From Flavobacteriales bacterium (lineage in GTDB: Bacteria; Bacteroidota; Bacteroidia; Flavobacteriales_D; Cryomorphaceae): a stretch of 42,069 bases of DNA. A program made the translations under genes and the position numbers. Shown here piece after piece: positions 15,639 to 40,174 of the stretch (within the stretch, counting starts at the first letter, position 1; each line of letters begins with the position of its first letter). Under the pieces are notes generated by a model, which was given only the letters and a program-made list of their open reading frames with translations, was not told the DNA's origin and did not search any database. The stretch is taken from NCBI GenBank assembly GCA_022448105.1, contig JAKVAV010000020.1, positions 1,785 through 43,853 of the forward strand, in the 5' to 3' direction.

Positions 15639-16751
15639 TTGATGTTTATTTTTCGAATTATGGTATGGATCAAGAAGAGCTGTGCAGCACTTGGAGCATC
15701 AATGCTCTGCCTATTGTTATTTTTCGAGTCTTATGCGCAAACCAGAAAATTTAGCAACGAGTTTCTAAATATAGGAGTTGGCGCAAGACCCCTAGCTATG
15801 TCCGGTGCTGGTGTGGCATCTGTTGGTGATGTTACGGCGGGTTATTGGAATCCTGCAGGACTTACCGATATTAAGGCGGATTTAGACATTGCAGCCATGC
15901 ACGCAGAGTATTTTGCTGGTATTGCCCAGTATGACTACGGTGCCATCGCTAAAACTATTGACAGCACCTCAGTTATTGCCCTTTCTGTGATTAGGTTCGG
16001 TGTGGATGACATTCCCAATACAACCCAATTAATCAATGCCGATGGAACCCTCAATTATGACAATATCACCACTTTTTCGGCGGTTGATTATGGTTTTTTG
16101 CTCTCGTACGCTAAAGCATTAAAAGTTCCGGGTCTTTCACTCGGTGCCAATGTAAAAGTAGTTCATCGGATGATAGGAGATTTTGCCAAAAGCTGGGGGT
16201 TTGGATTAGATGCAGGTTTAATTTATAGACAAGGCAATTGGAGATTTGCTGCCATGGCACGCGATCTCACCTCTACCTACAATGCCTGGAATTATAGCCT
16301 TGATCAAGAAACTCAAGATGTCTTTGTGGCCACGGGTAATGAGCTCCCAGAGAATGGCTTGGAGATCACCCTGCCAAGGTTCATTTTTGGCGCATCCTAC
16401 AAAAAAGAGTTTGGTAAATTTGGTGTCTTGGGTGAAGTCAATGCGGCACTTACCACAGACGGTCAGAGAAATGTTCTTATTAGCGCAGATCCAATTAGTG
16501 TAGATCCTGTAATGGGGGTTGAAGCCAGTTATCTGGATATGATCTTCTTGAGGGCTGGAATTGGTAACATTCAGAAGATTAAAACATTCCAAGGTACAGA
16601 AGAATATAGTGTTCAGCCCAACATGGGAGTTGGGTTAAGGCTTGGTAATTTTTTCCTCGATTACGCTATAACTGATATAGGCAATACTTCGGAAGCATTG
16701 TATTCCAATGTGTTTAGCTTACGCTTTAGGATATTTAAACAGACGCAGTGA
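15639..16751 (+). CDS. porV2: PorV2-like type IX secretion outer-membrane barrel protein
   Basis: PorV/PorQ-family protein, probably the barrel partner of the sortase encoded next. PorV-type barrels (FadL fold) shuttle type IX cargo from the translocon to the surface attachment complex. A signal peptide ends near FFESYAQ. The mature N terminus FLNIGVGARPLAMSGAG followed by YWNPAGL is the family hallmark. The protein is 370 residues from the ATG at 15639; the ATG at 15660 (MVWIKKSCAALG) gives a more typical signal peptide and is a good alternative start. It overlaps porU2 by GTGA. It is called PorV2 rather than the core PorV because of the pairing with a PorU2-type protein. It is transcribed divergently from pssA. 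Confidence 0.86.
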   Translation: MMFIFRIMVWIKKSCAALGASMLCLLLFFESYAQTRKFSNEFLNIGVGARPLAMSGAGVASVGDVTAGYWNPAGLTDIKADLDIAAMHAEYFAGIAQYDYGAIAKTIDSTSVIALSVIRFGVDDIPNTTQLINADGTLNYDNITTFSAVDYGFLLSYAKALKVPGLSLGANVKVVHRMIGDFAKSWGFGLDAGLIYRQGNWRFAAMARDLTSTYNAWNYSLDQETQDVFVATGNELPENGLEITLPRFIFGASYKKEFGKFGVLGEVNAALTTDGQRNVLISADPISVDPVMGVEASYLDMIFLRAGIGNIQKIKTFQGTEEYSVQPNMGVGLRLGNFFLDYAITDIGNTSEALYSNVFSLRFRIFKQTQ

Positions 16752-19700
16752 GAAAACTTTACCTTATAGGTCTATTATTCGTTTCAGCCTTAACACAAGC
16801 CCAACCCTTTGGTAATGAATGGATAGATTACGATCAGAGGTATTATAAATTTCAAATCTTCGAAGAAGGCGTGTATCGTATAACCTTCAATGATCTTGCC
16901 AACGCCGGGATTGCCATTTCAGGTATAGATCCGCAAAATATTCAACTCTTTGCTGGGAATGAAGAAGTGCCCATTTATATTGAAGGAGAGGAAGATGGAC
17001 TATTTAATGCTAATGATTACATAGAATTTGTCGGTAGAGGAAATGACGGACGGTTGGAAACTGAGCTTTATGAATCTCCGGAAGACCAACCTAACCCTTA
17101 TTACAGTCTCTTTAATGACACTCTGAATTATTTCATCTCTTGGAATTCGGAGGGTGAGAATTTAAGATTTCAAAGAAATGATCTTTCTCAAATTGAGAAT
17201 TTTGAGCCACAAGAGTTCGTCTGGAAACGAAATCAAATAGTCTACAGCAACGGATATTATCAAGGCCAGTTGGATCAGCTTGGTGTTTCCGTCCCATTTT
17301 ACACAAAAGGCGAGGGATGGCTGAGTTCGCGTTTTGGTTTTCCCGGAGGTAATATTTCTTTGACATCCAATATAAATACTCAGGGTGCTTACCAAGAGGA
17401 TGACGCTCCGCCTGCAGAACTTACCTCTGTTTCTGCTGGTGTCTCAAATGCCCCAAGTACTGGGAATAATCACTTTTTACAAATTCGATATGGCGAGTCC
17501 AATTTGCTTGCAGTCAACTTCCAATTCCAAGGATACGAGGTTAACAGGTTTAATTTCAATATCCCAAACAATCAGATTGGTCTTCAAACTACATTGATCA
17601 CTCATGAAGTTTCTAACTCTTTGGGAGTTGCCAGCGATTACCAAGCACTCGCCTCCTTAGAGATAACATATCCACATGTTTTAGATTTAGGCGTCAATGG
17701 AGAATTTCAGTTCCTCTACCGTTTAAACGCCCAAGAATCAACTACTCGATTTGATTTTCAAAATATTTTCGGCACCAATCCACGCGTTTACACAAATGGA
17801 TCAAATGCACAAAGGGCGGAATTCCAAATTTCAGAATCGGTATTCAGTACCCTTCTACAAAATAGTTTTGGTGATGATGCGTATGACTGTTTTCTGGTTA
17901 CCGACGAAACGGTAAAATCGATCGAATCAATTGAACCAGTTGCCAATAATGGTTTCTTTACCAACTTTGGATTGACAAATGTTGACTCTGCATTTGTAAT
18001 TATTACGCACCAATCATTAGCGGAAACGGCACAATCTTACTCCAACTATCGACAACAGAGATATAACACGGTTCTTACAGAAGCCGAAGAGTTGTACGAT
18101 CAATTTGGTGGTGGCGTGCGTAAAAGTGGAATTGCTTTGAGACACTTTTGTGATTTCCTACTCAATACCTGGCCCTCACAGCCGCAGTATTTGCTATTGG
18201 CGGGAAAAAGTGTCAGAACCGTCTCAGAAGCGGGTTCCCCAGGATCGAGGAGAGACTCTGCTAGCTATGCTAGGAATTTGGTTCCAACCTTAGGTTTTCC
18301 TTCCTCAGACAATTTTATTTCGGCAGGTCTTGACAATAGTATATTGGAGCCAGCTATTCGAACCGGAAGGATTAGTGCTACAAATCAAGAAGAACTCCAA
18401 TGGTATTTGGATAAACTTCAGGTTTTTGAATCTCAGCCTCAAGCGGCTTGGATGAAAAATGTGATTCATTTTGGAGGTGGACGTGATGCCCAAGAACAAA
18501 ATAGATTCGCGTCATATCTATCCGGATATGAACAATTCATCGAAGATTCAGCATTTGGTGCAGATGTTCACACCTTCCTGAAAACTTCGTCTATTCCGAT
18601 TGAAATCAACCTTTCTGAAGAAGTAGATCAACTTATCAACGAAGGTGCCTCCATGATGACTTTTTTTGGTCATGCCAGTTCTGATGGATTTGACCAGACC
18701 ATTGATGATCCGAATAATTATGAGTGGAACGGTAGATATCCTTTCTTGCTTGGAAACGGTTGCTACACAGGCGACTTTCACAGTAGCGGATCGGGCAGTA
18801 CTGCTGAACTTTACACTATTTTACCCAATAAAGGTGTAATAGGGTTTTTGGCCTCGACCGAACTTGGATTTGAGACCTCTTTGAATGATTACAGCAGACG
18901 TTTCTACCGATATTTATCTACCGACAACTATGGTGGAACTGTAGGAGACCATATTCGAAAGACTATTCAGGAAATTCAGGAAGAAAATGATCCTGAAAAT
19001 CTTTTTGTGATCAATACAACTCTAGGCATGTCTCTTCAAGGAGATCCAGCTGTGGTAATAAACTCCTGGCCTTACCCCGATTTATCACTTAGTGATCAAG
19101 ACGTATTTTTTACTCCCTCTGAAATAACAGCAGATACAGATAGCTTCTCTGTGAATATAGTTGTATCAAACATAGGAAAAGCCACATACCAGCCCTTTAA
19201 CCTTGTCTTAGAACACGAAACACCAGAAGGTGTTGGGGATTCTATCTACGCCCGGGTAGTAAATGGATTGCTGTATAGAGATACTATTCGAATAAATCTC
19301 CCCGTTGACCCTCGCAACAGTCTGGGTCTGCATAGATTTAATGTCTTGGTAGATCTTCCTGAGAATCAGTTAAGAGAACTTGATGGGTTCGAATCTGCAA
19401 ATAATCAAGTAATCGACAAGCAGTTATTTATATCTAATGGTGGAATCGTTCCTGTTTACCCTTATCGATTTGCGGTGATCGACGATGCCGCTGTAACTCT
19501 TCGTGCTTCAACAGGAAACCCGTTAGCCGAGTCAGCAACCTACATAATTGAAGCAGACACTATTGATACGTTCGATAGTCCTGCACTAGTGTCCTCAGAG
19601 ATTACTCAAATAGGTGGTGTTTTAGAATGGCAGCCCTCTTTTAACTTCACGGACAGCCTCGTTGTTTACTGGCGCTGTGCCAAAATGGATGAACAAGAAC

Positions 19701-21805
19701 TGATCTGGCGCGAAAGTTCTTTTCAATTTGTCCCTAATCGCCGAGGCTGGGGGCAGGCTGGCATTTTTCAATTTGAGAACAACTCGTTTTCTCAAAAAGA
19801 ATTCAATCGAACGCAGAGGAGATGGGATTATTCCACCGGATCGGTAAGGATTACAAATAATGTTCTCGGGAATTCTACCTCTTTCCAAAATGAGGTTTTA
19901 CTCAATACAAATGTAGTTGAATACGCTACATGCAACGGGACACCTGCAGTTCATTTGGTGGTGTTCGATCCGATAACATTCGATGCGTGGGGAACAAATT
20001 ATAACAACCAGAATCCTCAAAATACTTTTGGTAATTTTAATGAAACAAGCTGCCGACAAAGAGTTGAATACTTTTTCGTTTTTCTCCAAAATAGCCCTAC
20101 CCAAATGCAGGCATTGGCCGACTTGCTCCTATCAGAGACTATACCCGATGGACACATCGTAATACTATACTCTGCGCGCTACGTTAGTTACGATGATTGG
20201 AACAATACCCCTGATATTTATGACGCATTTGCTCAGTACAACGCAGGTATTATTGGTTCGGAGGTGGCACAAGACAGTGTGCCATATTCCTTAATCACGA
20301 GAAAAGGAGATCCCTCCTTCTCCTTTGAGCTCTATGGAGATAATATTTCAGACGTGCTGAATAACATAGTCGATGTTCCTGCATCTGGAAATTCAGGCTT
20401 AATGGTCTCACCTAGGATAGGTCCGTCCAGTTCTTGGAAGAATATTAGTTGGGAAACTTCCAGTCTTGATTTGGGCCCAGGCGACTCTTCAGCAATTTCA
20501 ATTATTGGAATTACGGCGTCGGGCACTTCCGAAGAGATTCTCCAAACACCCTACGAAGATATTAGTATTGAACTCGAAGATCTTCAAAATCAAATTAGTC
20601 CTCAGGAGTATCCTTTTTTGGAATTACAAATTTTTTCGGAGGATAAAGAAAATCAAACACCGCGACAGGTCAATAGATGGCATGTGCTCTACGACGAAGT
20701 CACCGAACTGGCAATAAATCCCAAAGAATTTTATGCCTTTTCAGGTGATGAAATTCCTCAAGGACAAGTGGGATTTTTGGCTGTTGCCATTCAAAATATT
20801 TCTATGGTCGACGCGGACAGTGTTCTTGTGAGGTATTGGATAGAAGATACCGAAAGGAATGAGATAGAGATCCCTTACGATCGTCAAGATTCTCTTGTTA
20901 CAGGAGGTACAATTATCGACACGGTTTTCTTTGATACCCGCTTTTTAAGCGGCCAGAATACACTTTGGGTGGAAGTTAATCCTGTAGATCCTGAAACTGA
21001 TGCGCCAGATCAACCAGAGCAAGTTCGTTTCAATAATGTTTTAAGAATTCCATTCACAATTACTGAAGATGATGAAAACCCTATCCTAGATGTTACATTC
21101 GATGGTATTCACATCATCAATGGTGAGGTAGTTTCACCAAATCCTGAAGTCCTCATCGCTCTCAAGGATGAAAATCCATTTTTACTGATGGATGAACCTG
21201 CAGACACCTCTCTTTTCAAAGTCTTTTTAGCCCTACCAGACGGTAACCTTGAACCGGTATTTTTTGCAAATCCTACGGGGGAGGAAGTTATGCAGTTTAT
21301 ACCGGCAGAAAATCAACAGAATCGCGCGAAGATTTTCTACCGTCCAAGTCTACCCTCCAATGGGGTGTATAAGCTATTAGTTCAAGCGAGCGATAAATCA
21401 GGTAATTCTTCTGGAAATACTGATTACCAAATAGAATTTGAGGTAATCAAGGAATCTACGATTACAGAAGTTCTTAACTATCCAAATCCATTCACTACCA
21501 GTACCCAATTCATTTTTACCCTCACCGGAGAGCGTGTTCCCGATGAATTCAAGATTCAAATTATGACTATTTCAGGAAAAGTGGTTAAAGAGATAATGCT
21601 CGACGAGTTTGGCCCCATCCGAATAGGAAGAAATCGCTCCGTTTATCGCTGGGACGGCCGCGACGAATATGGCGATCGACTAGGTAATGGAGTTTATCTT
21701 TACCGAGTGATAGCCCGAATTAATGGAGAAGATATAATGCTCAAAGATGGGGGAGCCTCCCAATATTTCGAGCGAGGATTTGGGAAGATGGTTATGTTTA
21801 GGTAG
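16748..21805 (+). CDS. porU2: Putative type IX secretion sortase PorU2 (C25 gingipain-like)
   Basis: Very large (1685 residues) secreted cysteine-peptidase-like protein. In the type IX system PorU removes the C-terminal sorting signal of cargo and joins it to anionic LPS; PorU2 is a paralogue of less clear role. The start is GTG at 16748, overlapping the porV2 stop. A signal peptide (MRKLYLIGLLFVSALTQAQ) precedes an N-terminal domain. The C25 fold occupies about 395-760, with catalytic His642 (FFGHASSDG) and Cys672 (LLGNGCYTGDF), both intact. A long beta-sandwich region follows (about 780-1570), then a C-terminal FlgD-like/type IX-type domain from about 1575 (NYPNPFTTSTQF ... GNGVYLYRV). The length exceeds the usual 1100-1300 residues of PorU proper. 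Confidence 0.88.
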   Translation: MRKLYLIGLLFVSALTQAQPFGNEWIDYDQRYYKFQIFEEGVYRITFNDLANAGIAISGIDPQNIQLFAGNEEVPIYIEGEEDGLFNANDYIEFVGRGNDGRLETELYESPEDQPNPYYSLFNDTLNYFISWNSEGENLRFQRNDLSQIENFEPQEFVWKRNQIVYSNGYYQGQLDQLGVSVPFYTKGEGWLSSRFGFPGGNISLTSNINTQGAYQEDDAPPAELTSVSAGVSNAPSTGNNHFLQIRYGESNLLAVNFQFQGYEVNRFNFNIPNNQIGLQTTLITHEVSNSLGVASDYQALASLEITYPHVLDLGVNGEFQFLYRLNAQESTTRFDFQNIFGTNPRVYTNGSNAQRAEFQISESVFSTLLQNSFGDDAYDCFLVTDETVKSIESIEPVANNGFFTNFGLTNVDSAFVIITHQSLAETAQSYSNYRQQRYNTVLTEAEELYDQFGGGVRKSGIALRHFCDFLLNTWPSQPQYLLLAGKSVRTVSEAGSPGSRRDSASYARNLVPTLGFPSSDNFISAGLDNSILEPAIRTGRISATNQEELQWYLDKLQVFESQPQAAWMKNVIHFGGGRDAQEQNRFASYLSGYEQFIEDSAFGADVHTFLKTSSIPIEINLSEEVDQLINEGASMMTFFGHASSDGFDQTIDDPNNYEWNGRYPFLLGNGCYTGDFHSSGSGSTAELYTILPNKGVIGFLASTELGFETSLNDYSRRFYRYLSTDNYGGTVGDHIRKTIQEIQEENDPENLFVINTTLGMSLQGDPAVVINSWPYPDLSLSDQDVFFTPSEITADTDSFSVNIVVSNIGKATYQPFNLVLEHETPEGVGDSIYARVVNGLLYRDTIRINLPVDPRNSLGLHRFNVLVDLPENQLRELDGFESANNQVIDKQLFISNGGIVPVYPYRFAVIDDAAVTLRASTGNPLAESATYIIEADTIDTFDSPALVSSEITQIGGVLEWQPSFNFTDSLVVYWRCAKMDEQELIWRESSFQFVPNRRGWGQAGIFQFENNSFSQKEFNRTQRRWDYSTGSVRITNNVLGNSTSFQNEVLLNTNVVEYATCNGTPAVHLVVFDPITFDAWGTNYNNQNPQNTFGNFNETSCRQRVEYFFVFLQNSPTQMQALADLLLSETIPDGHIVILYSARYVSYDDWNNTPDIYDAFAQYNAGIIGSEVAQDSVPYSLITRKGDPSFSFELYGDNISDVLNNIVDVPASGNSGLMVSPRIGPSSSWKNISWETSSLDLGPGDSSAISIIGITASGTSEEILQTPYEDISIELEDLQNQISPQEYPFLELQIFSEDKENQTPRQVNRWHVLYDEVTELAINPKEFYAFSGDEIPQGQVGFLAVAIQNISMVDADSVLVRYWIEDTERNEIEIPYDRQDSLVTGGTIIDTVFFDTRFLSGQNTLWVEVNPVDPETDAPDQPEQVRFNNVLRIPFTITEDDENPILDVTFDGIHIINGEVVSPNPEVLIALKDENPFLLMDEPADTSLFKVFLALPDGNLEPVFFANPTGEEVMQFIPAENQQNRAKIFYRPSLPSNGVYKLLVQASDKSGNSSGNTDYQIEFEVIKESTITEVLNYPNPFTTSTQFIFTLTGERVPDEFKIQIMTISGKVVKEIMLDEFGPIRIGRNRSVYRWDGRDEYGDRLGNGVYLYRVIARINGEDIMLKDGGASQYFERGFGKMVMFR

Positions 21806-33458: not shown

Positions 33459-35807
33459 CTAGTACTTCACAAATTGTCTGGAGTAATTTTGTCCATTAGC
33501 TTTCACCACAGCTACATAAACTCCGGGTGCGAACTGTTGAATATCAATTCTCTGATGAGACGAATATTTTCCTCTTTTGATGAGCATTCCGTAGATATCA
33601 TAGATATGAAAAGTTGCATTTGCCTCTTCACGCGATAAGTCGATCCATATTCCTTCTGAAGAAGGGTTGGGGTAGATGGCCATTATTGATTTATCGACTA
33701 TCTCATTTTCCAGGTTTGAAAGGCTTTCACAGTTGTAATCCTCTATTGAGAAATCTGTATTCATAAAAGTGGATAGGTTGCTAATGGCATGTGATTGTCT
33801 CTCTTCATTAAATGTCCTGAGCTTGCTATTGATATTTGAGTGCCATTGACTCATGCTGTTTACATTATGCCACCGGTCTATGTTGTACTCCATACCTGTT
33901 TCATACAAATCAACAAATCGATCAATCGCGTCTGAAACTGCATCCGGGTCAAATTCATTCCTCATCAAACAAGCATATCGGGCTTTAAATTCCTCTTTAA
34001 ATTCGGGCGATTCCAAAAATTTTCTAAGCAAAAAAGTAGCCCATGGAGGATTGGAATAATCTGTGTTTGTTGTTGTTGTTAGACGATTCCATGCATTATA
34101 GGTTGCGGGCAGGTAACCCCACCCAGAATCCATGTCAAAGAGAAGCCAACGCCACTTAGTATCTCCACCACCTCTCCATAACTTGTGATTACCTCCCGGC
34201 CAATCCTTTTGATTAAAATAAATCTCTGTGGCATAATAATCAATCATGCTCGACATGTCCATTTGAGTCTTGATGTAGTCGTAATTTGCGACTTGATTCA
34301 TGTCAGCATTTTCCATGAAATCTGCTAAAGCACCATAATGAGAATTATCTCCTTCAAATACTCCCCAATCTTCAGGAACACCTTCTCTATGACCTGAAGC
34401 GTTGTTGATGATACTTACAGAATCTTCATGATAGCCATGAGTCTCTTCGATATACTGACGATCAAAAAAATCTCTGATTCCAAAGATACCCCAGAACTCT
34501 CCATTGATAAAAAGCAGGCATATTCTTGAATGCTGGCTATCAAAATCTAAATCTTTCGCCACGTAGGCCGAAACATCATCTTTTATGGCGGTATTATTCC
34601 AACATCCCATCGTCGTTCGGAGGATGAGTTTGTCAAATACCCTCTTATTCTTGGTGGTAAAAAATTCATGATTAAACTCTCCAGCACCTAGGTGATTTCT
34701 GGCATATAGCCTGAAAGACTTTTGAGGGTAACCTCTTGTTCTTCCTCCATGTATACGAAGACCGGCAGATTGCTGCCACTCCAAAACACCATTCTCGAAG
34801 TATTCAATGTGTACATCTCTCTCTGAATCCTCTCCCCTTAGAAAATAATTTCCTGACCAAATGAGGTTTGACGAGGTGAAATTCACCCCAGGAACATGAA
34901 TGCCACGATGGTAATCGAATAATGAGTCTCCATCGACCTGAATTGAAAACACGGGGTATTCTTGAAATAAATCAGCTATTTCAGGTCCAATAGGATAACT
35001 TTTGGTAAAAACTTGAGAAGTTGAAATGCCATCTGAAAATGACATTGCCCTAATGGTATTGGTCTGTAGAATCTCTCCATCCGGTTCTTCCCAATTGTAA
35101 GATGTTGAAATGTAAGAGAAAACCGCTTCTTGTTCTGTCGCATCTCCGAATGAAAAAGGCCCTGTATAGAGGGAGCTTTGAGCTGTGGGGATCGATCCGT
35201 TGAGTGTATACCTTATTTCATGTCCGAGTGAATGAGTTAGGTAGACTTCAGTTTCGGATTCAAAAACGCGTGACGGAGAAGAGAAAGTTATTATACTCTC
35301 CGAGATTGCTGGAGCCTCAGGGGTAATGATGTCAACCAGCTCCCAATAACATTCTGCTTCGCAAATGCGTGTGAGTGCAAATCCCTCCGAGAGGGGAGTT
35401 GGGTCAATGTGGTCGATTACATCTCCCTCGGGACTTACGAGGAGTAAAATTTCACCCTCTGACTTTATTTTGAAGTTGGTATGAAAGGGTGCTGTCTGGC
35501 GGTCTTTGTTTGAACAGAAAACAATGAGGTGCTCGTTTGCTTGGATTTCTACTGACGGAAATGTCCATTTAAACAGATTGTCTTCTTCGTCCGTGAGGGC
35601 AAAACCTTGAATGTTTAGAGGTCCGGATGAATTATTGACGATCTCTATCCAGTCACTTGCATCGCCGTCCTCGTCAGGGTAGAGCCCATCGCTGTTAGAA
35701 ACCATCTCTGACAGATATATGTCCTGAGCCAATGAAAAAAAACTGAAGTGCATAAGAACTAGACAGATCAATAGTTTCACTGGAAAGGTGTTACGTCTAC
35801 TGCACAT
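33459..35807 (-). CDS. CotH-family protein with lamin-tail domain and type IX sorting domain
   Basis: Secreted, probably surface-attached protein of 782 residues from the ATG at 35807 (MCSRRNTFPVKLLICLVLMH, signal peptide ending FFSLAQ); a TTG at 35843 would extend it by 12. Residues about 17-120 form a lamin-tail domain (YLSEMVSNSDGLYPDEDGD, SDWIEIVNNSS). Residues about 280-610 match the CotH kinase-like fold: LRIHGGRTRGYPQKSFRLYA, GCWNNTAIKDDVSAYVAKDL, LFINGEFWGIFGIRDFFDRQ and WRWLLFDMDSGWG with the metal-binding Asp region. From about 710 there is a type A C-terminal sorting domain (IYPNPSSEGIWIDL ... FAPGVYVAVV). Family members phosphorylate proteins or are inactive; activity cannot be judged here. 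It follows the symporter gene by 59 bases on the same strand. Confidence 0.88.
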   Translation of the reverse strand: MCSRRNTFPVKLLICLVLMHFSFFSLAQDIYLSEMVSNSDGLYPDEDGDASDWIEIVNNSSGPLNIQGFALTDEEDNLFKWTFPSVEIQANEHLIVFCSNKDRQTAPFHTNFKIKSEGEILLLVSPEGDVIDHIDPTPLSEGFALTRICEAECYWELVDIITPEAPAISESIITFSSPSRVFESETEVYLTHSLGHEIRYTLNGSIPTAQSSLYTGPFSFGDATEQEAVFSYISTSYNWEEPDGEILQTNTIRAMSFSDGISTSQVFTKSYPIGPEIADLFQEYPVFSIQVDGDSLFDYHRGIHVPGVNFTSSNLIWSGNYFLRGEDSERDVHIEYFENGVLEWQQSAGLRIHGGRTRGYPQKSFRLYARNHLGAGEFNHEFFTTKNKRVFDKLILRTTMGCWNNTAIKDDVSAYVAKDLDFDSQHSRICLLFINGEFWGIFGIRDFFDRQYIEETHGYHEDSVSIINNASGHREGVPEDWGVFEGDNSHYGALADFMENADMNQVANYDYIKTQMDMSSMIDYYATEIYFNQKDWPGGNHKLWRGGGDTKWRWLLFDMDSGWGYLPATYNAWNRLTTTTNTDYSNPPWATFLLRKFLESPEFKEEFKARYACLMRNEFDPDAVSDAIDRFVDLYETGMEYNIDRWHNVNSMSQWHSNINSKLRTFNEERQSHAISNLSTFMNTDFSIEDYNCESLSNLENEIVDKSIMAIYPNPSSEGIWIDLSREEANATFHIYDIYGMLIKRGKYSSHQRIDIQQFAPGVYVAVVKANGQNYSRQFVKY

Positions 35808-35866
35808 TTCTTTCAAATCATGAATTTCAGGATAAAATACCAACTAGGTTGCTTAAACTTCTTGAT

Positions 35867-37573
35867 TTAGTCCTCCCAATTGATCTTTTTCCTCATTTTT
35901 AGTGACAAGATAACTGAAATGATCATTACCGAAGCACAGCCAATAAGGTTGAAATACAAGTACGAAATGGTTTCGGATAAGTAATAATAAAGAATCAGAA
36001 TCCCTGCTTGTGATAGGATGGCTGCCATGAAGACAGCATTTCCTTTTACAAATTTTAGGAAGAAAGCAGTAAAGAAGATTCCAAGAATTGTCCCGTAAAA
36101 GAGGCTTCCTAAAATGTTTACGGCTTCGATGAGGTTTTCGAATAGATCTGCGTAAAGAGCAAATCCAACGGCTAGAACACCCCAAAAGGCAGTCAAAACC
36201 TTCGACATTAGAAGGTAGTGCTTGTCGTCACCATCTTTTTTTATCAGTCGCTGGTAGAAATCTACAGAAGTAGTCGATCCCAATGCATTCAGTTCTCCGG
36301 CGGTGCTGGACATTGCCGCAGAGATAATTACCGCTAGAAGTAGGCCCACCAACCCAGCTGGCATAAAATTGAGGATATAGCTGATGAATACATAGTCTGA
36401 ATCCTTTTGTGTGTTTTCTGGGAATGCCTTCCGAACCAAAGCTTTTGCTTCGTCTCTTTTCTCGAACGCTTGATTTTTTAGTTCGTTCAGATTGCTTTCA
36501 GCACTCACGACAGCTTCAGTGTTTCCAGATTCTCGTAGACCGATATACTCTATTGCTGCTTGTTTCTTTTCTTCGTGAATTTGGTAGTGCTCAGTGCGTA
36601 TTTCAGCCAATTCATCATTAAATGTTGTTTTTTCGAGTAATTCGAGGGATGTGCTATCGAATAGTACATCATGGGGCTGGAACTGATAAAACACAAAAAC
36701 CATCACTCCAGTGAGAAGAATAAAAAATTGCATGGGGATCTTGAGAAGAGCATTAAACATCAACCCCATTCTGCTCTCCTTTACAGAAGCTCCTCCCAAG
36801 TATCTCTGAACTTGAGATTGATCAGTTCCAAAGTAGGATAGTGCCAAGAAGAATCCTCCGATGATTCCAGACCAAAAGGTGTATCTTTTCTCACCGTCAA
36901 AACTGAAGTCAATGGCTTCTGTTTTTCCCATTTTTCCTGCCAATTGAAGGCCATTAATAAAGCCAACCTCGTTCGGTAGATTGTAGATAATTGTTCCAAA
37001 AGCCACTGCCATTCCAAATAGAATGACTCCCATCTGCCATTTTTGGGTGAGACTCACTGCTTTCGTACCACCGGAAACCGTATAAATGATAACAAGCATT
37101 CCGACTACTATTATAGTTCCGTTCAAGTTCCATCCGAGCACCGATGAGAGAACAATCGCTGGGGCGTAAATTGTTATTCCCGCCGCCAGTCCCCGCTGAA
37201 CGAGGAATAGAAAAGCAGCTAGCATCCTACTCTTCAGGTCAAATCGTTTTTCTAGGTATTCATAAGCTGTAAAGACCTTGAGCCGATAGTAAATAGGAAT
37301 AAAAACGGCAGAAACTACTATCAAGGCGAAGGGTAACCCAAAATAGTTTTGAACGAAGGCCATTCCTGATTCGTATGCCTGGCCAGGAGTGCTAAGGAAA
37401 GTAATAGCGCTGGCTTGTGTAGCCATTACAGATAAGCCTATTGTAGACCACTTTAATTCTTTGTCTCCAAGAAGATAACCTTGTATGTCTCGATTCTTTC
37501 GGGTCTTATAAGTGCCGTATCCTACTATGAATAACAAGGTTGCCCCGAGCACGAAGTAGTCTAATGGAGTCAT
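35867..37573 (-). CDS. Sodium:solute symporter (SSS family) with a charged helical insertion
   Basis: Inner-membrane Na+-coupled transporter of 568 residues with about 13 predicted spans. The family core is visible in VMATQASAITFLSTPGQAYESG (from about residue 50), YTVSGGTKAVSLTQKWQMG and SAAMSSTAGELNALGSTTSVDFYQRL. Unusually, a hydrophilic, Glu/Lys-rich helical segment of about 80 residues (about 305-385) lies between two membrane spans, likely a coiled-coil-like external or internal loop. The ligand is unknown; relatives carry sugars, sialic acid, amino acids or nucleosides. Its ATG overlaps the stop of the 39-residue gene by ATGA. The neighbouring exported PIG-L deacetylase suggests import of a deacetylated sugar-like product (inference). 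Confidence 0.92.
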   Translation of the reverse strand: MTPLDYFVLGATLLFIVGYGTYKTRKNRDIQGYLLGDKELKWSTIGLSVMATQASAITFLSTPGQAYESGMAFVQNYFGLPFALIVVSAVFIPIYYRLKVFTAYEYLEKRFDLKSRMLAAFLFLVQRGLAAGITIYAPAIVLSSVLGWNLNGTIIVVGMLVIIYTVSGGTKAVSLTQKWQMGVILFGMAVAFGTIIYNLPNEVGFINGLQLAGKMGKTEAIDFSFDGEKRYTFWSGIIGGFFLALSYFGTDQSQVQRYLGGASVKESRMGLMFNALLKIPMQFFILLTGVMVFVFYQFQPHDVLFDSTSLELLEKTTFNDELAEIRTEHYQIHEEKKQAAIEYIGLRESGNTEAVVSAESNLNELKNQAFEKRDEAKALVRKAFPENTQKDSDYVFISYILNFMPAGLVGLLLAVIISAAMSSTAGELNALGSTTSVDFYQRLIKKDGDDKHYLLMSKVLTAFWGVLAVGFALYADLFENLIEAVNILGSLFYGTILGIFFTAFFLKFVKGNAVFMAAILSQAGILILYYYLSETISYLYFNLIGCASVMIISVILSLKMRKKINWED

Positions 37574-37689
37574 GCTGTAGCTTTACTGAAAAAGTATAAG
37601 AACATGCAAAAGGCAAAAAAGAATCCTATTACTATCAGATAGACCCTTCTCCAGTTGGTGTGGTCTGTAGGATTATTCTCTTCGGCCAT
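37570..37689 (-). CDS. 39-residue single-span membrane protein coupled to the symporter
   Basis: From the ATG at 37687-37689: MAEENNPTDHTNWRRVYLIV followed by IGFFFAFCMFLYFFSKATA. A polar N-terminal part ending in Arg-Arg precedes one transmembrane helix (about residues 17-35), predicting N-in topology. It overlaps the 3' end of the PIG-L gene by 17 bases and the symporter start by ATGA, so it is locked into the operon by translation on both sides. Several SSS transporters are encoded with a small membrane partner (YjcH with ActP, YhdT with PanF, DUF4212 proteins); this one is shorter and I cannot assign it to those families, but an accessory-subunit role is a reasonable inference. A longer frame starting at 37761 lies inside PIG-L and is unlikely. 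Confidence 0.72.
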   Translation of the reverse strand: MAEENNPTDHTNWRRVYLIVIGFFFAFCMFLYFFSKATA

Positions 37690-40174
37690 TCTTCGAGTTT
37701 GAGAGGGCCAAGATATTAGCCAAAAGTCGATAAGCGCCAGGTACGCCTCCTGGTAATTCACGGAAAAATGAAATTCCTGAGTATATGAAAAAGCCTTCTC
37801 CGTGCGGAGCTACAATAAGCCCTCCATTCCGTGAAGGTTCTTCTGGGTCTGACCAACCGATAATGGGAGTGAAGTTATCGTCCCACTCATTGGCAAAGTA
37901 AAGCCCTCGCTCTTGAACCCAACCATCAAAATCCTCCATCGTAATCTCATTCGGAAAATGAAGAACCGGATGTTCTGGTGCTAAAAAAGTAGGGCTCGCG
38001 GTTTCTTCTGTGACCCGTTCACGAGAAAGCTTGAAAGAATAAGGTCCCATCTTCTCAGATTTCAATCTACGACTTGTATTGTACTGCACGAGCCAGGTTC
38101 CCCCATTTTGTACGTATCGGTTTAATGCGTCCGCTGCAAAGTCTAAATCCTCCCGTCTGTTGAATGCTCTAATTCCTGTGACAATCGCGTCATAAGAGTC
38201 GAAATCTCCACTAACCAAGGCATCTTTAGTGATAATCTCTACTTCATAACCAACTCCCTTTAAATACTTGGCTACTTCATCTCCAGGTCCCTCAATGTAT
38301 CCGATTTTGGAAACGCCACCAAAGGCTAGATCAACTGGTACAATATTCACCTTAGAAGGAGATAGTTCAATTTGAGTCGGAATATGATCGTATTCAATTA
38401 ATCTCAAATTTTGAAGTTTAATCTCAGAACCATCAGTTTTTTCAAAAACAAGACCTATTACTCCTCGGCTGGGATTACCGTCTGGTGAAATCTCAAATGA
38501 CAGCAACTTGGTTTCTCCCTTTGCAGTGAAATCTAGTTTTATTTCGGACGGCATGCACTTCCATCCCGTTGGAGTAGTTGGCCTCAATATTCCTTTAAGT
38601 GCTCCACTATGAGATCTTGCCTTAACAGAAATCTTCTTGGATTGCCCTTTGCTGGCCACAATGGTTTTTTCATCAAATCCTGCGGTAATCTCAGGAACAA
38701 CGTAAACCGGACTGTAGAGCACCGCTTTAGCCGGATCAACCTCCTTGTTTACAAGATCTAAGGTGCTAGTAAACTGATAGCCTGATATTTCAAAAGTAAC
38801 ATCGAAGTGAAAACTCGGATCATTTTCAGGTTTTCCCAAATCAGAATACCCTTCAACCGAGTAAAGATTTTCGTAAGGTGCGTTTAGCCAGTAAGGATTA
38901 CTAAACTTCATATTTTCAGTGACCTGTACAGTCACCTCACTGTAGTAGAAGTCATTGGTGGTTAGATTTTTTGAAGGTTTATCTTCAAAACCAAATCCAG
39001 AAACTGCTGTCAACTTAACTTGAACTGAACTCGCCAGGTTAATCTTGATTTCTGCGGGTATCTCCAAGCCTGGAACCACCAAAAACTCCTTAGTGGAAGC
39101 GATCATCTCTACACCGGCAAGTTTCAGTACCAATTCTTCGAGTTCTTTCTTTTTTCTGACCAATAAAGGGTCTTCATCCGCACCAGTCAGCATCTTAAGC
39201 GCTTCAATTACTCCCTCAATTGACTTAGATGGCTTGGTGAAATCAAAATTATTGATCGTTTCAGTAAGTATCAATCCCACCTCAGGCCTTGTAGTATTTT
39301 TCCAACCAGTCTCAATCCCGTAAAGCAGTCCCTCACCTTTTTTGACCTTATCACCCATCACATATTTCATATACTCGGTTTGATTTCCCATAGGGTAGTC
39401 TGATCCAAATCCTTGGCTTTTGTGTTCGCTGCGACTTCTCGCCGCGATTTGGGCATAAGACTCACCGATTAAATCGTTATACCGGCCAACGTTGACAGTC
39501 AAAAAATCATCTGAGTTTTTTGCCTGTTCTTCCAAATCTTTAATCCACCAAGTACTAGTATTAAAATAAAGTCTTTTTGGCTGCCAAGGCTCTACATATT
39601 CTAGTTGCTCCGGAAAAGCATATGGATCCGCAGCCATGTTAAATATCTCTTCAGCGGTGATTGCGCTTGCTTGATGATGGCCGTGTCCGGCGTAGTTGCT
39701 TGGTGGGAACCTTGTTACAATTGCATCTGGTCGAAACTTCCTAATAACCCAAACTGCATCTCTCAAAATGTTTTCTCGGCCCCATTTCTCAAAAGATTCT
39801 GCAGCACTTTTTGAATAGCCAAAATCAACAGCGCGTGTGAAAAACTGTTCTCCACCGTCGATGTCTCGAGCCGCTAGGAGTTCTTGGGTCCTTAGTATTC
39901 CTATAGAAGAACCAATTTCGGTTCCGATGAGATTTTGGCCACCATCTCCCCGAGTCAGCGATAGGTAGGCGGTTCGCGCATGGAGGTGGTTTTCAAAGTA
40001 GGATATCAATCTAGTATTTTCATCATCAGGGTGGGCTGCCATATAGAGAATAGAAGCAGTATTGGCTGCTTTGAGTAGTTCATGGTACAGTTCTGACGAT
40101 GACTCACTTTCTGGAAATTGCGCTTGCGAAAAGAGAGAGAGAAGTGTAAAGACTCCGGCTAAGGTTAATTTCAT
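37673..40174 (-). CDS. Exported PIG-L family deacetylase with C-terminal amidotransferase-like domain
   Basis: An 833-residue periplasmic or secreted protein with signal peptide MKLTLAGVFTLLSLFSQAQ. Residues about 40-300 are a LmbE/PIG-L Zn-dependent N-acetyl hydrolase domain: AAHPDDE (His48, Asp50, Asp51) and GHGHHQAS (about 162-167) supply the metal ligands and catalytic residues. The family removes acetyl from GlcNAc-type substrates (GlcNAc-PI, mycothiol/bacillithiol precursors, antibiotics). A beta-sandwich middle (about 360-600) precedes a C-terminal domain (from about 610) resembling class I glutamine amidotransferase/ThuA folds (SKIGYIEGPGDEVAKYLKGVGYEVEIITKDAL, RYVQNGGTWLVQYNT) with no obvious catalytic Cys. 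It leads an operon with the 39-residue gene and the symporter. A perfect -7 box lies 23 bases upstream. Confidence 0.92.
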   Translation of the reverse strand: MKLTLAGVFTLLSLFSQAQFPESESSSELYHELLKAANTASILYMAAHPDDENTRLISYFENHLHARTAYLSLTRGDGGQNLIGTEIGSSIGILRTQELLAARDIDGGEQFFTRAVDFGYSKSAAESFEKWGRENILRDAVWVIRKFRPDAIVTRFPPSNYAGHGHHQASAITAEEIFNMAADPYAFPEQLEYVEPWQPKRLYFNTSTWWIKDLEEQAKNSDDFLTVNVGRYNDLIGESYAQIAARSRSEHKSQGFGSDYPMGNQTEYMKYVMGDKVKKGEGLLYGIETGWKNTTRPEVGLILTETINNFDFTKPSKSIEGVIEALKMLTGADEDPLLVRKKKELEELVLKLAGVEMIASTKEFLVVPGLEIPAEIKINLASSVQVKLTAVSGFGFEDKPSKNLTTNDFYYSEVTVQVTENMKFSNPYWLNAPYENLYSVEGYSDLGKPENDPSFHFDVTFEISGYQFTSTLDLVNKEVDPAKAVLYSPVYVVPEITAGFDEKTIVASKGQSKKISVKARSHSGALKGILRPTTPTGWKCMPSEIKLDFTAKGETKLLSFEISPDGNPSRGVIGLVFEKTDGSEIKLQNLRLIEYDHIPTQIELSPSKVNIVPVDLAFGGVSKIGYIEGPGDEVAKYLKGVGYEVEIITKDALVSGDFDSYDAIVTGIRAFNRREDLDFAADALNRYVQNGGTWLVQYNTSRRLKSEKMGPYSFKLSRERVTEETASPTFLAPEHPVLHFPNEITMEDFDGWVQERGLYFANEWDDNFTPIIGWSDPEEPSRNGGLIVAPHGEGFFIYSGISFFRELPGGVPGAYRLLANILALSNSKNGRRE

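Follow-up and report, generated by a model that had tools for sequence, protein, structure and literature searches.

A putative process-and-import unit of Bacteroidota: a PIG-L deacetylase, a sodium symporter and the micro-protein encoded between them

What is a gene of 39 codons doing between a large deacetylase and a sodium:solute symporter, and which of the two proteins would its product serve? The question is raised by a locus in a 42,069-nucleotide stretch of contig JAKVAV010000020.1 from a Flavobacteriales bacterium (the window), for which a first-pass annotation had described three minus-strand genes locked together by overlaps of 17 bases and of ATGA. Direct reading of the open reading frames (ORFs) confirmed a PIG-L deacetylase, a one-span 39-residue protein and a transporter of the sodium:solute symporter (SSS) family at positions 35867-40174, and the coordinates bear out both overlaps:

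37673..40174, minus strand: PIG-L deacetylase gene, ATG start, 833 amino acids (aa)
37673..37689, minus strand: overlap of the PIG-L gene 3′ end with the micro-gene 5′ end, 17 bases, read from the sequence
37570..37689, minus strand: micro-protein gene, ATG start, 39 aa, MAEENNPTDHTNWRRVYLIVIGFFFAFCMFLYFFSKATA
37570..37573, minus strand: ATGA stop/start overlap of the micro-gene with the symporter gene, 4 bases, read from the sequence
35867..37573, minus strand: SSS/SLC5-fold sodium:solute symporter gene, ATG start, 568 aa

We propose that these genes specify a 'process and import' unit of Bacteroidota, composed of a periplasmic PIG-L Zn deacetylase, a Na+ symporter and an accessory protein of one helix that serves the symporter as a subunit, a reading that we regard as reasonably probable.

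A conserved micro-gene upstream of the symporter

The micro-ORF is a protein-coding gene under purifying selection and not a chance reading frame. Dozens of genomes have a matching ORF in the same position between the PIG-L and symporter genes, with profile E-values down to 1e-23, and in 49 of 86 cases the 4-base ATGA overlap is present as well. Nonsynonymous divergence is lower than synonymous divergence (dN<dS) in all 23 micro-gene pairs with a computable dS, the median ratio of 0.11 being only rough because dS is near saturation. Loss or frame-breaking of the gene in close relatives, a possibility raised in the first-pass annotation, was not found: it is intact in all seven relatives from the genus and family (L080-L086).

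Members of the micro-family are 32-55 aa long and carry a nearly invariant W and Y four residues apart (W13-x3-Y17 in the window protein, with a PPxFxSW form in many homologs), followed by a single hydrophobic helix whose span ends in F-Y-L-x-T. The charge pattern suggests that the protein probably inserts once into the inner membrane with its N terminus inside, which would place the W-x3-Y part on the cytoplasmic side and leave about 5-8 residues in the periplasm. Three apparent fusions of the micro-protein to either neighbor (L062, L096, L103) were rejected, as two of these loci have a separate micro-ORF and one has none.

Neither Pfam nor NCBIfam contains a significant match to the window micro-ORF, and a search of 25 micro-proteins against both databases at E 0.1 returned only scattered matches below cut-off, such as Ycf70. 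The small partners of bacterial SSS transporters, namely DUF4212 proteins, DUF485/YjcH with ActP and DUF997/YhdT with PanF, are about 80-120 aa long and have two spans. Their genes resemble the micro-gene in encoding a small membrane protein directly upstream of an SSS gene, but the micro-protein is shorter and has one hydrophobic span rather than two; in the same search none of the 25 micro-proteins matched DUF4212, DUF485 or DUF997, and their Pfam matches included no MAP17 model.

The distribution of the unit was surveyed in 198 genomes of the class Bacteroidia, which were searched with the micro-protein profile, the symporter and the PIG-L protein, the results then being crossed. PIG-L orthologs are present in 102 genomes, symporter orthologs in 99 and both in 98, that is, in 98 of the 103 genomes that have either (Fisher p 4e-50); both genes are single copy with rare exceptions. 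Far from being usually unlinked, an outcome that the first-pass annotation had also considered, the two are neighbors (same strand, within 6 kb) in 74 of these 98 genomes, and they co-occur in the remaining 24 as well. The three-gene unit is found in about half of the sampled genomes of the class.

The micro-gene is tied to the symporter in particular. Of the 99 symporter-bearing genomes, 79 have a profile match immediately before the symporter, and all 55 micro-gene loci collected by searching the class and the phylum have the symporter directly downstream. The symporter is also immediately preceded by an ORF of 32-55 codons at 38/38 symporter-bearing loci on the contigs of the first relatives and at 27/28 loci of the relatives set. 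No such ORF was seen upstream of distant SSS paralogs, including the window genome's own L109 and L113, whose upstream regions were read. Seven stray weak profile matches (E above 1e-4) lack the context of the trio and were taken as chance.

The deacetylase and the symporter

The PIG-L protein matches PF02585 with 47.1 bits against a cut-off of 28.2 (E 4e-12, Pfam). Its sequence begins with a likely signal peptide, its predicted structure (pLDDT 90.6) comprises the PIG-L domain, a β-sandwich middle part and a Rossmann-like C-terminal domain, and the following elements were located on the gene:

40118..40174, minus strand: candidate Sec-type signal peptide MKLTLAGVFTLLSLFSQAQ, predicted from the sequence; Q19 is nearly invariant in 58 homologs
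39662..40045, minus strand: PIG-L (PF02585) domain, residues 44-171, Pfam
40019..40033, minus strand: Zn/catalytic motif H48-P-D50-D51-E52, invariant in 58/58 homologs
39674..39688, minus strand: third metal/acid motif G-H164-G-H-H167, with H164, G165, H166 and H167 invariant in 58/58
37685..38329, minus strand: conserved C-terminal Rossmann-like domain, residues 616-830, with weak class-I-amidotransferase-like similarity

The active site is complete, and by correspondence with MshB and Dac we take H48, D51 and H167 to be the Zn ligands and D50 to be the base. The description of the protein as an exported PIG-L-type Zn enzyme thus holds, with an export signal that is likely from its sequence. 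The C-terminal domain is nearly as conserved as the catalytic one (mean top-residue frequency 0.64 versus 0.72 among PIG-L homologs), and its earlier designation as amidotransferase-like finds weak support: the best matches in homologs, to ThuA, GH42M and DUF2194, have E-values of 8e-5 to 4e-3, all below cut-off. Several PIG-L homologs (L090-L107) were flagged with one in-frame stop despite a full-length open frame, which is probably the terminal stop lying inside the match.

Among PIG-L enzymes in the PDB, the structural matches are N,N′-diacetylchitobiose deacetylases (target TM about 0.6, identity 13-17%). Most of the other high-ranked PDB matches have low TM-scores and are large proteins of several domains, to which the β-sandwich part of the model probably led, and a phmmer search of PDB sequences gave no match. 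The NCBIfam equivalog cut-offs are not reached for Mca (34.8 of 277 bits), MshB (18.6 of 224) or BshB1 (16.7 of 182). The protein shares the PIG-L fold and the HPDDE and H-x2-H metal motifs with Dac of Pyrococcus and with other PIG-L/LmbE enzymes (MshB, Mca, BshB, LnmX), but differs from them in its length of 833 aa, its probable export and its β-sandwich and Rossmann-like C-terminal domains.

The symporter exceeds the cut-offs of both PF00474 SSF (E 1e-34, 120 bits) and TIGR00813 (235 bits). Its model (pLDDT 87.3) has a LeuT-type fold and matches SiaT (best), SMCT1, NIS and SGLT2 of the SGLT2-MAP17 complex in the PDB. It shares with the SiaT/SMCT1/NIS branch of the SSS (SLC5) family the fold (target TM 0.79-0.89) and the Na2-site residues, whose equivalents A51, A54, A419, S422 and S423 are conserved in symporter orthologs. 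Two further positions differ: the substrate-binding Arg135 and the Na3-site Asp182 of SiaT align with A130 and Q177, respectively, and neither is conserved. The window symporter is also set apart by its near-constant genomic partner, the PIG-L gene, and by an additional periplasmic hairpin:

36419..36661, minus strand: clade-specific extracytoplasmic helical hairpin, about residues 305-385, about 80 residues, from model and alignment

The hairpin connects TM7 to TM8, which by the topology of SLC5 transporters puts it on the extracytoplasmic side, and its sequence is poorly conserved while its length is nearly constant (region 300-395 measures 87-101 residues in 44/44 aligned orthologs). By alignment it is absent from SiaT and from the paralogs L109, L138, L139, L144 and L145; the paralog L141, 40% identical, aligns through it. 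As modeled, it is an obvious candidate contact for a periplasmic partner. In one symporter ortholog (L135, in G077/G084) the open frame runs to 824 aa rather than about 570, suggesting a C-terminal extension.

The proposed unit and its alternatives

In the mechanism that we favor, the PIG-L protein would be secreted to the periplasm, where its Zn site would strip a solute of the GlcNAc-like or glucosaminide type of an N-acetyl (or amide) group, and the co-occurring symporter would use Na+ to import what results, or else a companion product. The micro-protein, spanning the inner membrane once, would presumably bind the symporter and assist it in folding, stability or activity, in the way that MAP17 assists SGLT2, while translational coupling through the ATGA overlap would keep the two in step. 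Because the micro-protein is real, selected and nearly always encoded directly before the importer, it is probably a helper subunit; the link to the transporter made in the first-pass annotation stands on the genomic counts, and the physical subunit role is what we infer.

Several observations weigh against this mechanism. The micro-gene was not seen in the six symporter-bearing genomes of family f21, in L103, L116, L118, L123, L132 and L140, or in a few others, and it is therefore accessory, lost in some lineages and not obligatory. In G189 it stands behind the PIG-L gene and not before the symporter, a clear case of the opposite arrangement, and L021 is a likely one, its micro-gene being part of the PIG-L locus while a different contig carries the symporter; the micro-protein could therefore serve the PIG-L enzyme instead. 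(G162 and G153 were rejected as exceptions, their loci being at contig ends.) As to the substrate, an N-acetylated amino sugar fed into classical amino-sugar catabolism is not supported: NagB occurs in 15/98 genomes with the PIG-L/symporter pair and 11/100 others (p 0.41), the window's genome lacks it, and genes for glycan degradation do not recur nearby. This argues against simple glucosamine catabolism by the NagB route (other deaminases were not searched), which we rejected, as we did sialic acid uptake, the sialate-binding Arg of SiaT not being conserved.

The best surviving alternative is that the micro-protein, rather than being a transporter subunit, anchors the deacetylase in the membrane or acts as its docking adaptor, placing the enzyme beside the symporter. 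The micro-gene overlaps or closely follows the PIG-L gene in 68 of 89 profile matches, and G189 and L021 keep the two together with the symporter elsewhere. The PIG-L gene is elsewhere, however, in 14 of the 79 genomes with a micro-gene before the symporter; with three divergent cases (G110, G151, G186), the micro-gene has stayed at the symporter and the PIG-L gene has moved away in 17 genomes from ten families. In genomes without a symporter beside the PIG-L locus, 19 of 24 symporter loci still have the micro-gene before the symporter, against just the two opposite cases. Furthermore, with W-x3-Y presumably cytoplasmic, only about 5-8 periplasmic residues would be available for binding the enzyme. 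We consider an anchor role improbable.

Apart from the trio, no gene keeps a constant position among the neighbor clusters of the relatives' loci, and these clusters contain no recurring SusC/SusD or glycoside hydrolase genes of a polysaccharide utilization locus. Individual insertions between the PIG-L gene and the micro-gene are weak hints: a GH130 gene (β-1,4-mannooligosaccharide phosphorylase family) in a Saprospiraceae genome (L021:8534-9676), the one GH130 seen, and DinB-family genes in two others (L025:8474-8980, L055:8515-9024), in which the micro-gene is still near the symporter.

The DinB insertions bear on a somewhat less probable alternative, in which the enzyme and the symporter serve not glycans but a thiol or glucosaminide system of bacillithiol-type conjugates, with a Mca/Bca-like amidase outside and the glucosaminyl-malate or cysteine part imported. 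Consistent with it are the best NCBIfam similarity of the PIG-L protein, which is to the mycothiol conjugate amidase Mca and far below cut-off, and the presence of BshB1 in 94 of the 98 pair genomes. BshB1 is, however, nearly universal (183/198 genomes; the association is not significant, p 0.10), the DinB insertion is confined to two genomes, and by structure the enzyme matches chitobiose deacetylase. A role of the PIG-L protein in bacillithiol biosynthesis itself was rejected, BshB1 being nearly universal and separate, as it is in the window's genome. Least probable is that the micro-ORF is mainly a translational-coupling leader that feeds ribosomes to the symporter start and whose peptide has no partner: its very short product and the frequent ATGA overlap (49 of 86) fit this idea, but it is conserved at the protein level (W and Y, the hydrophobic span, the profile E-values and dN<dS) and is also kept where 50-190 bases separate it from the symporter start.

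Elsewhere in the window, the gene at 33459-35843 (minus strand), 23 bases downstream of the symporter, encodes CotH kinase-like, lamin-tail, chitobiase-type C-terminal and T9SS sorting domains (Pfam) and is not among the recurring neighbors of the trio in relatives. Positions 16748-21805 (plus strand) encode a 1685-aa Peptidase C25 protein of the PorU/gingipain type, likely a T9SS sortase; the 370-aa ORF ahead of it has no Pfam match, and its position suggests PorV.

Relation to known systems and significance

In the papers with open licences that were searched, no description of a PIG-L enzyme, an SSS symporter and a small protein together was found. The chitin oxidation pathway offers a partial parallel in OngIT, an SSS importer of the N-acetyl amino-sugar derivative GlcNAc1A that works with the deacetylase OngB (PMC9537276). 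The likeness lies in the pairing of a deacetylase with an SSS transporter that takes up an N-acetylated amino-sugar acid, but OngB is cytoplasmic and related to D-aminoacylases, not to PIG-L (PMC9537276). Closer to the micro-protein is MAP17 (PDZK1IP1), which contacts TM13 of SGLT2 and supports its function and surface expression (PMC10803289). Here the likeness is one of arrangement only, in that a transporter of the SSS fold has a distinct accessory protein of one helix, and binding in the bacterial unit is suggested by analogy; the bacterial micro-protein differs in being about 40 aa long, gene-coupled and without a MAP17 family match.

A bolder version of the process-and-import unit, in which the three proteins form a stable complex at the inner membrane and in the periplasm, the hairpin docks the deacetylase and channels its product into the symporter, and the micro-protein is an independently evolved bacterial counterpart of MAP17, appears to us doubtful.

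Gene callers probably often overlook this unnamed membrane protein family of about 40 aa, which is linked to a single symporter over much of the phylum and would provide a genetically tractable bacterial case for the support of SLC5-fold transporters by single-helix subunits. Furthermore, the near-perfect co-occurrence of the PIG-L enzyme and the symporter makes what may be a common, uncharacterized uptake route testable.

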